64,000 nt of DNA from Rhizohabitans arisaemae. Its GTDB lineage: Bacteria > Actinomycetota > Actinomycetes > Streptosporangiales > Streptosporangiaceae. The position numbers and the translations under genes are program-made. Under the pieces are notes generated by a model. The model did not search any database, was not told the origin of the DNA, and saw nothing but the letters and a program-made list of their open reading frames with translations. Of this stretch, positions 42,521 through 44,753 are shown piece after piece. Location: contig NZ_BLRH01000034.1 of the NCBI RefSeq assembly GCF_025996515.1, positions 372,001-436,000 of the forward strand, given 5' to 3'. Every line of letters starts with the position of its first letter. Position 1 is the first letter of the stretch.

Positions 42521-43316
42521 TCAGCGGGGGCGCATCCGACGGGTCGCGGCGTCGACCCGTACCGTGTGGCCGTGGCCGTCCAGATACTCCAGCAGCGGGA
42601 TGACCACCCGGCGGGAGGTGCCCAGCACACTGCGGGCCTGGCTCGCGGTGAACGGCTGGGGGAGCAAGGTCAGGACCTCCACCGCCCGCGCCTCCGCCGA
42701 AACCGGCAGCACCACCCCATCGGCCAGCCGGAGCAGGGCACCCGCCCGCGCCGCGGCCGCCACCGACGCGGAGGTGAAGCCCAGCTCGGCGAGACGACCT
42801 CGGCCCGTGCGGGGGGCAGCGCGGCGACGAGCCTGTCCAGCACACCGAGAAGGTCGTCGACGCCTTCACCGGTGGCGCCGCTGACGGTGACGGCCTCCAC
42901 CCGCCCCAGGCAGGTCTTGGCGATCTCGGCGGCGGCCTCGCCGAGGGCCGGCCGCGGGTCGGCGCGGTCGCGTCGGGTGACGACCAGGAGCCCGTGGCCG
43001 ATGCCCAGGGCGTCGACGGCCGCCAGGTGCTCGGCCGACTGCGGCATCCATCCATCGTCGGCGGCGACGACCATCATGACGGCGGGCACCGGGCCGACAC
43101 CGGCGAGCATGGTGGTGAGGAAGCGCTCGTGACCCGGGACGTCGACGAAGGCGAGTCGTTCACCCGAGGGGAGGGTCCGCCAGGCGAACCCCAGGTCGAA
43201 GGTGAGGCCGCGGCGGCGTTCCTCCGCCCACCGGTCTCGGGTTCCATGCCGGTGAGGGTATGGACGAGCGTCGACTTGCCGTGGTCGACGTGGCCCGCGG
43301 TCGCGACGACGTGCAC
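42521..43316 (-). pseudogene. selB: selB, selenocysteine-specific elongation factor, frameshifted and internally deleted
   Basis: GTG 43316, after GGGAGG, starts HVVATAGHVDHGKSTLVHTL, the SelB G1 motif region. Near 43237 a frameshift moves the match to another frame: WAEERRRGLTFDLGFAWRTL, FVDVPGHERFLTTMLAGVGP, then MMVVAADDGWMPQSAEHL and later LGRVEAVTVSGATGEGVDDL. Right after about 42800 the sequence jumps to the C-terminal winged helix of SelB (AGALLRLADGVVLPVSAEAR, ASQARSVLGTSRRVVIPLLE), again in the other frame, ending at 42521. Domains II, III and most winged helices (over 250 residues) are missing. The gene cannot make a working factor. Confidence 0.85.
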
Positions 43317-43357
43317 GTGCGCCTCCCCTCGTATCCTGCGACCCGGGGGAGGAGCCC

Positions 43358-43377
43358 GGTACGGCCTGCGCCGTACC
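43358..43377. terminator. Hairpin between selB relic and zinc-finger-like gene
   Basis: Arms GGTACGGC and GCCGTACC with loop CTGC, 8 bp perfect. A second partial copy of the arm, GGTACGGCCTGCGGCC, lies at about 43411-43426. The stem is of the same type as those at 19.45 and 41.28 kb. Confidence 0.5.
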
Positions 43378-43446
43378 CGAGACGGACTATAGCGTTCCGG
43401 TATCACCCCGGTACGGCCTGCGGCCCGGGAGCGCATAATCGTCCCC

Positions 43447-43608
43447 GTGGACGGCATACGGTGCGGGGTCTGCCTGGGCGAAGGCGGCTACCACCAGGAA
43501 TCCGATTTCAAGCCCGGGAACCGGGTCTGGGTCACATGTGAAGCGTGTAACGGCACTGGGTGGCTGAAACCCCCCAAAACCATAAGGCCCACCCGGGGAT
43601 CCGCATGA
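43447..43608 (+). CDS. 53-residue zinc-finger-like protein (DnaJ-type CxxC pairs)
   Basis: A short frame from GTG 43447, VDGIRCGVCLGEGGYHQESD, then FKPGNRVWVTCEACNGTGWL and a basic tail. It has two CxxC pairs (CGVC and CEAC), the second followed by NGTGW as in DnaJ CxxCxGxG zinc modules, so it should bind one zinc ion. Its TGA overlaps the ATG of the methyltransferase gene by 4 bases, which argues strongly for a real, coupled gene. It does not look like a graspetide precursor. Function unknown; it may be an accessory or substrate-handling partner. Confidence 0.7.
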   Translation: MDGIRCGVCLGEGGYHQESDFKPGNRVWVTCEACNGTGWLKPPKTIRPTRGSA

Positions 43609-44753
43609 CGGCTTGGGAAGGACCGGCCCGGGCACTCGCCGACACGACGACGCCACGCGGCTCCCACTGGCGTGAGCTGGTGGCCACCACACCCCGGCAT
43701 CTCCTTGTGCCCCACTGGTGGGACGAACCTCACTACACCGCACAGGACGGACCGAGCCATCCCGAGGCATGGCTCCGCGCCGCCTACAGCGACACCAGCC
43801 TGGTCACCCGCGCGGGGGCGACGCACGCCGACCGCATCACCCCCGGCACCCACCTCAACCCCTTCAAGGCCCGCCCCACCTCCTCCTCCACGCTTCCCTC
43901 CCTCGTCGTCCACCTGCTCCGGCTCGCGGAGCTCTTCGAAGGCGCGGACGTCCTGGACGTGGGGACCGGATCCGGATACAGTGCCGCCCTGCTCTGCCGG
44001 CACCTGGGCGACCGCCGCGTCACCAGCCTCGACATCGACCCCTATCTGGTGGACACGGCCGCCGAACGCCTGGACCGTCTCGGCTTGCGTCCGACGCTGC
44101 ACACCGCCGACGCAGGCGGACCGATCCCCGGAACCTACGACGCGATCGTCGCGATGGTCGCGGTCCGCCCGATCCCACCCACCTGGCCTGCCGCGCTCCG
44201 GCCAGGTGGACGGCTGGTCACCACGATCGCCGGCACCGGCCTGCTGGTGACCGCCGTCAAACACCCCGACGGCCGCCTGCGCGGCCGGATCGAACCGCAG
44301 GGCGCGGGATTCATGCCCGCCAGAACAGGGGAGGACTACCCGGCGGCCGACCCGACGCGTTTTCTGGCCCTGCGCGACGCGTCCCCCCACGGCGACGTCG
44401 TCGAACCCAGCCCCTACCCGATCCCCGACGTGAACGCCGCCACGGAACTCCGGGACCTGCTGGAGGTGACCGCTCCGGGCATCGAACACCGCTACCTCCG
44501 CGGACTCCCGGGAGGCCCCGACACCGCGTGGATGTCGCACCACGACGGCTCGTGGGCCCGCGCCACCGCCTACCCCGGGCAACGTCCGCTCGTGCACCAA
44601 GGCGGGCCGCGCCGGCTGTGGAGCACCCTGGACTCGCTGCGGGACCGCTGGCTGAGCCACGGGCGCAACCCCCTGAACGGAGCACGCGTCGACATCGATC
44701 CGGACGGCGTGATCCACCTCGGCGACGAGCACTGGTCGGCCACACTGACCTGA
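43605..44753 (+). CDS. Protein O-methyltransferase of the graspetide (ATP-grasp peptide maturase) type
   Basis: A 382-residue protein-isoaspartate-methyltransferase-like enzyme. Conserved features are the entry region WRELVATTPRHLLVPHWW, AYSDTSLVTRAG, PTSSSTLPSLVVHLL, motif I VLDVGTGSGYSAALLCRHLG, the acidic SLDIDPYLVD and AVRPIPPTWPAALRPGGRL. This set and the long C-terminal half are typical of methyltransferases found with ATP-grasp graspetide maturases, where they convert Asp to isoAsp or aspartimide. No precursor peptide and no ATP-grasp ligase are nearby, so it appears to be an orphan. ATG 43605 overlaps the upstream zinc-finger-like gene. Confidence 0.85.
   Translation: MTAWEGPARALADTTTPRGSHWRELVATTPRHLLVPHWWDEPHYTAQDGPSHPEAWLRAAYSDTSLVTRAGATHADRITPGTHLNPFKARPTSSSTLPSLVVHLLRLAELFEGADVLDVGTGSGYSAALLCRHLGDRRVTSLDIDPYLVDTAAERLDRLGLRPTLHTADAGGPIPGTYDAIVAMVAVRPIPPTWPAALRPGGRLVTTIAGTGLLVTAVKHPDGRLRGRIEPQGAGFMPARTGEDYPAADPTRFLALRDASPHGDVVEPSPYPIPDVNAATELRDLLEVTAPGIEHRYLRGLPGGPDTAWMSHHDGSWARATAYPGQRPLVHQGGPRRLWSTLDSLRDRWLSHGRNPLNGARVDIDPDGVIHLGDEHWSATLT

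Follow-up and report, generated by a model that had tools for sequence, protein, structure and literature searches.

A two-gene unit at positions 43447–44753 of the window (the whole 64,000-nucleotide stretch of Rhizohabitans arisaemae DNA analysed here) most plausibly represents a cysimiditide (type II pamtide)-like system. With a probability of about 0.78, its small zinc-ribbon protein would be a substrate that is methylated at Asp20 (D20) and converted through an aspartimide mainly to isoaspartate. The two genes and their motifs are present, D20 is invariant among the methyltransferase-adjacent zinc ribbons aligned, and an Asp at this position (+11) co-occurs with an adjacent methyltransferase. 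Judged from the sequence, the pair is a probable addition to a known class, with an enzyme apparently from a branch other than that of the typical pairs seen.

Pamtides were defined as two-gene units of a precursor and a methyltransferase when PIMT homologues with a C-terminal extension were mined (Lee 2023, PMC10787088). Type II precursors follow the pattern CxxCxGxG-D-CxxCxGxG. In the FcaA/FcaM system of Frankia casuarinae, the conversion of Asp to isoAsp via a methyl ester and an aspartimide was established in vitro and by NMR, and it requires zinc and free cysteines (PMC10787088). A review (PMC13001092) equates type II pamtides with the cysimiditides of Zhu 2025 and adds two more examples, the TceA and NalA systems. 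The published type II pamtide list has 125 entries. The 2023 survey, whose tree comprises 9,408 enzymes, also contained 249 radical-SAM-PAMT pairs for which no precursor was found (Lee 2023, PMC10787088).

The upstream gene (43447..43608, + strand, GTG start) encodes a 53-residue zinc-ribbon protein, the probable substrate or precursor: MDGIRCGVCLGEGGYHQESDFKPGNRVWVTCEACNGTGWLKPPKTIRPTRGSA. Its knuckles, C6-x-x-C9-x-G-x-G and C31-x-x-C34-x-G-x-G, form two CxxCxGxG motifs, and 15 residues follow the second. D20 (codon GAT, 43504..43506, + strand) lies at +11 from C9, the second Cys of the first CxxC, in the context ES-D-FKPG, where Phe at n+1 is atypical. The match to the DnaJ zinc-ribbon family PF00684 is weak (E 1.7e-4, 22 bits, below the Pfam cut-off of 32.7). 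The stop of the small gene and the start of the methyltransferase gene share an ATGA overlap (43605..43608, + strand), as in translational coupling. The sequence-only reading had described a zinc-finger-like protein "fused in operon" to the enzyme; both ORFs are real and translationally coupled, but the proteins are separate. By sequence comparison, the small ORF is a real gene and no chance ORF, because the arrangement has a counterpart: 45 kb away on this contig, a methyltransferase paralogue (54% identical) likewise follows directly on a zinc-ribbon gene (MEGKEQCGSCLGEGSVEDDLDGQDAQIKAATRRNCLPCDGTGWVKRLF).

A CATAAT at 43434–43439 lies 7 bases before the GTG, as for a leaderless transcript; a scan of the locus for sigma-70-like promoters and terminators found neither, nor any full sigma-70-like consensus site. 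On the minus strand, 42521–43457 contains SelB-type GTPase-like pieces (HVVATAGHVDHGKSTLVHTLTGMEPE...) in several frames, as if a gene had been broken, the translations being judged by eye.

The downstream gene (43605..44753, + strand) encodes a 382-residue protein L-aspartyl O-methyltransferase (PAMT, a PIMT homologue) with a C-terminal extension and the SAM motif VLDVGTGSGYSAALL. Its C-terminal motif is WLSHGRNP, that is WxxxGxxP, a form that 94 of the 123 relatives in its branch share; WxxxGxP is found in 10 of 15 enzymes of typical zinc-ribbon pairs, and the WXXXGXP motif of lassimiditide, graspimiditide and imiditide enzymes is absent near the C-terminus of the window methyltransferase. 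Single-sequence structure prediction of the two proteins (pLDDT 60 and 34) was too poor for use, and a search of named genomes with the enzyme returned no match.

A general protein-repair PIMT, returning isoaspartate to aspartate beside an unrelated small gene, would account for the PCMT domain match (Pfam, E 1.6e-15) and for the best PDB match, 1dl5, the PIMT of T. maritima. This explanation is highly improbable: the RiPP-associated family TIGR04188 ("ATP-grasp peptide maturase system methyltransferase") matches far better and over the whole length including the extension (252 bits, E 8e-75, residues 11–368), and several such paralogues occur in one genome. The TIGR04188 score falls short of the curated 380-bit cut-off. 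The earlier description of the enzyme as graspetide-like is borne out at the level of a PIMT-type, RiPP-associated enzyme. Its remark that the locus lacks an ATP-grasp ligase also stands: neither an ATP-grasp ligase nor a graspetide precursor was found near the methyltransferase, no ATP-grasp gene lies on the whole contig, and the two ATP-grasp genes of graspetide type in the genome both lie on another contig, C28.

The evidence on the substrate comes mainly from comparison of zinc ribbons. A zinc-ribbon profile was searched over 343 genomes of the family, and the neighbourhoods of the matches were then inspected. All 19 distinct zinc ribbons with an Asp at +11, counted as for D20, have an adjacent methyltransferase; in 18 it lies within 1.1 kb downstream on the same strand, and at the remaining locus (L129) it directly precedes the ribbon. 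Where +11 is Asn-Gly (30 ribbons) or Glu (4), a methyltransferase adjoins in 0 of 34, within flanks of about 1.5–2.5 kb. The association gives a Fisher p of 8e-15 with loci counted regardless of relatedness; the rule was suggested by roughly the first eight ribbons, and the rest, which make up about half of the 19, were at loci examined afterwards. When 12 methyltransferase-adjacent ribbons were aligned, the only invariant positions were C, C, G, G, D, C, C, G and G, the D being D20. The residue after this Asp is mostly Gly; three ribbons have Ser or Asn there, the window ribbon has Phe, and a further one (L085) has Trp. A scan for the FcaA peptide ITVTSDGK, meant to test the +11 rule on an experimentally modified Asp, gave 23 stretches, none of them a zinc ribbon, and thus missed its target.

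These comparisons suggest that D20 is probably the modified residue of the small protein. They also bear on the possibility that the zinc ribbon is an adaptor or regulator bringing the methyltransferase to another protein instead of being its substrate. Binding to other proteins is common among DnaJ-type zinc ribbons, and the closest relatives of the enzyme work with larger partners, radical-SAM proteins. An adaptor would, however, not need an invariant Asp between the knuckles, the Asp is present only beside a methyltransferase among the sampled ribbons, and in a characterised relative the Asp between the knuckles is the modified residue; the adaptor role is thus unlikely. The sequence-only proposal that the small protein is a substrate is very probably right. 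The accompanying view of the enzyme as an orphan with no precursor does not hold, the small protein being the likely precursor.

A separate observation concerns a zinc-ribbon family without neighbouring methyltransferases (CGTCLGAGGEWxExNGxK...; L103–L106, L108, L110, L113, L114, L118, L123–L127 and L156–L183), which has Asn-Gly exactly at the Asp position. No other residue pair forms isoaspartate spontaneously as readily as Asn-Gly. After these Asn-Gly ribbons there is mostly a second zinc ribbon starting TDPITCPEC.

The genome itself, the only one representing its genus, carries three full-length paralogues of the window methyltransferase (53–56% identity) plus a broken copy. At about 45% identity, the ribbon of the sister pair retains D20 and the full set of eight Cys/Gly motif residues, with D-G where the window ribbon has D-F. 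Each of the other two full-length paralogues is preceded by a radical-SAM gene, as is a fifth, more distant methyltransferase on contig C59. The broken copy (G000:C59:114-1257; L005, L098) lies near the start of C59 and is spread over several frames. Its presence in the same genome, together with the lack at the window locus of the radical-SAM or ATP-grasp partner of most relatives, would fit a decaying or orphaned graspetide- or radical-SAM-type methyltransferase placed behind a zinc-ribbon gene by chance. Such decay is quite unlikely here, since both ORFs are intact and overlap at ATGA, and the same arrangement recurs at the sister paralogue, where D20 and every motif residue are conserved.

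The lineage of the enzyme appears unexpected for the class. A family search with the window enzyme found matches with an E of 1e-70 or lower in 67 of 343 genomes. The upstream partners of its close homologues are mostly radical-SAM genes, with ATP-grasp genes in several members of the sampled family f18, where they precede seven relatives; a zinc-ribbon gene lies upstream only at the two own-genome loci and at L085. The survey of homologues for the small gene that the sequence-only reading had proposed therefore gives a divided answer: most close homologues have radical-SAM or ATP-grasp genes instead, and only the sister paralogue and the L085 genome share the small gene. At L085 (contig G061:C12), genes for a zinc ribbon, a radical-SAM protein and a methyltransferase stand in a row, and the ribbon has Asp-Trp at +11.

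The window enzyme is 51–58% identical to radical-SAM- and graspetide-associated methyltransferases and 31–33% identical to those of typical zinc-ribbon pairs, five of which were compared directly. The typical pairs are L111, L115, L119, L128, L129 and ten more, whose branch may be that of FcaM, TceM and NalM. Quick trees group the window enzyme with its sister paralogue (support 95–98) on the radical-SAM/graspetide side and place the typical pairs beyond a long branch (support 100). A tree that puts all zinc-ribbon enzymes to one side of a branch is not rejected by an AU test (p 0.67) and is even slightly better. Because a single zinc-ribbon grouping is not rejected, the window pair may sit at the junction between the typical and the radical-SAM/graspetide branches. 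A claim of independent origin for the window pair was dropped on the same AU result. A second zinc-ribbon pamtide lineage is a tentative proposal, somewhat doubtful on balance: an enzyme of the radical-SAM/graspetide branch would have separately taken a zinc-ribbon substrate and would act on Asp-Phe, so that what lasts as the product may be either a methyl ester or else a slow aspartimide.

Comparison with known systems places the pair closest to the cysimiditides/type II pamtides. Like these, it is a two-gene unit of a zinc-ribbon precursor (CxxCxGxG-Asp-CxxCxGxG) and an adjacent PIMT homologue with a C-terminal extension, without another primary RiPP enzyme. It differs in its enzyme, at 31–33% identity to those of the typical-looking pairs in the genome family searched and 51–58% to another branch, in Asp-Phe instead of Asp-Gly, in WxxxGxxP instead of WxxxGxP, and in the 15-residue tail. 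The imiditides/type I pamtides (NmaA-NmaM, SpaA-SpaM) are likewise two-gene units with the methyltransferase as sole modifying enzyme, but their precursors are linear, rich in Gly, Pro, Asp and Lys, and without the cysteine motifs of the window. Graspetide-associated methyltransferases (TIGR04188; SsfM, AmdM type) share full-length similarity and the same branch, whereas the window locus has no ATP-grasp ligase or graspetide precursor and scores under the TIGR04188 cut-off. The radical-SAM-PAMT pairs form the branch closest to the window enzyme and include two near own-genome paralogues; in the window, the zinc-ribbon gene replaces the radical-SAM gene. The idea of a variant isoaspartate chemistry outside graspetides is correct as to Asp/isoAsp chemistry without an ATP-grasp ligase. 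It is not new, type II pamtides/cysimiditides having been described in 2023 and 2025.

By analogy with the characterised relatives, from which zinc binding, methylation and aspartimide/isoAsp formation are carried over to the window pair, the small protein would fold as a zinc ribbon whose two CxxCxGxG knuckles hold one metal ion, and the strand-turn-strand between them would be presented as a hairpin. The downstream methyltransferase would recognise the folded hairpin and methylate the D20 side chain, after which the methyl ester would close spontaneously to an aspartimide that opens mainly to isoaspartate. Asp-Phe is an unfavourable context for aspartimide ring closure. Since D20 precedes Phe and not Gly, general aspartimide chemistry suggests that the ring may close more slowly and the methyl ester may persist for longer. 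Counted against the cysimiditide-like reading are the 31–33% enzyme identity to typical pairs, the Asp-Phe site and the close homologues elsewhere without the small gene.

Of 61 radical-SAM proteins encoded beside methyltransferases of the window branch (L003 and L004 in the own genome, with relatives among L021–L095 and L130–L243), 56 carry D-G/S-x-D-C-x-P in their tails. The motif occurs in 0 of 20 homologous radical-SAM loci (44–51% identity) that were chosen for lacking a near window-type methyltransferase; no methyltransferase was found nearby at 16 of these (some at contig ends or incomplete), 3 have one of the more distant L006 type, and at 1 a typical zinc-ribbon pair lies 3.5 kb away. 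On this pattern, the tail of the radical-SAM protein may be the candidate missing substrate of the radical-SAM-PAMT pairs.

A pair found by eye is thereby placed in a known but young class (2023–2026 literature), and the cysimiditide/type II pamtide class would gain members outside the enzyme lineage of its typical pairs. The comparison yields a sharp search rule for more such pairs: Asp at +11 goes with a neighbouring methyltransferase, and Asn-Gly or Glu there goes without one. For the radical-SAM-methyltransferase pairs, left without a substrate in the 2023 survey, it suggests a candidate.
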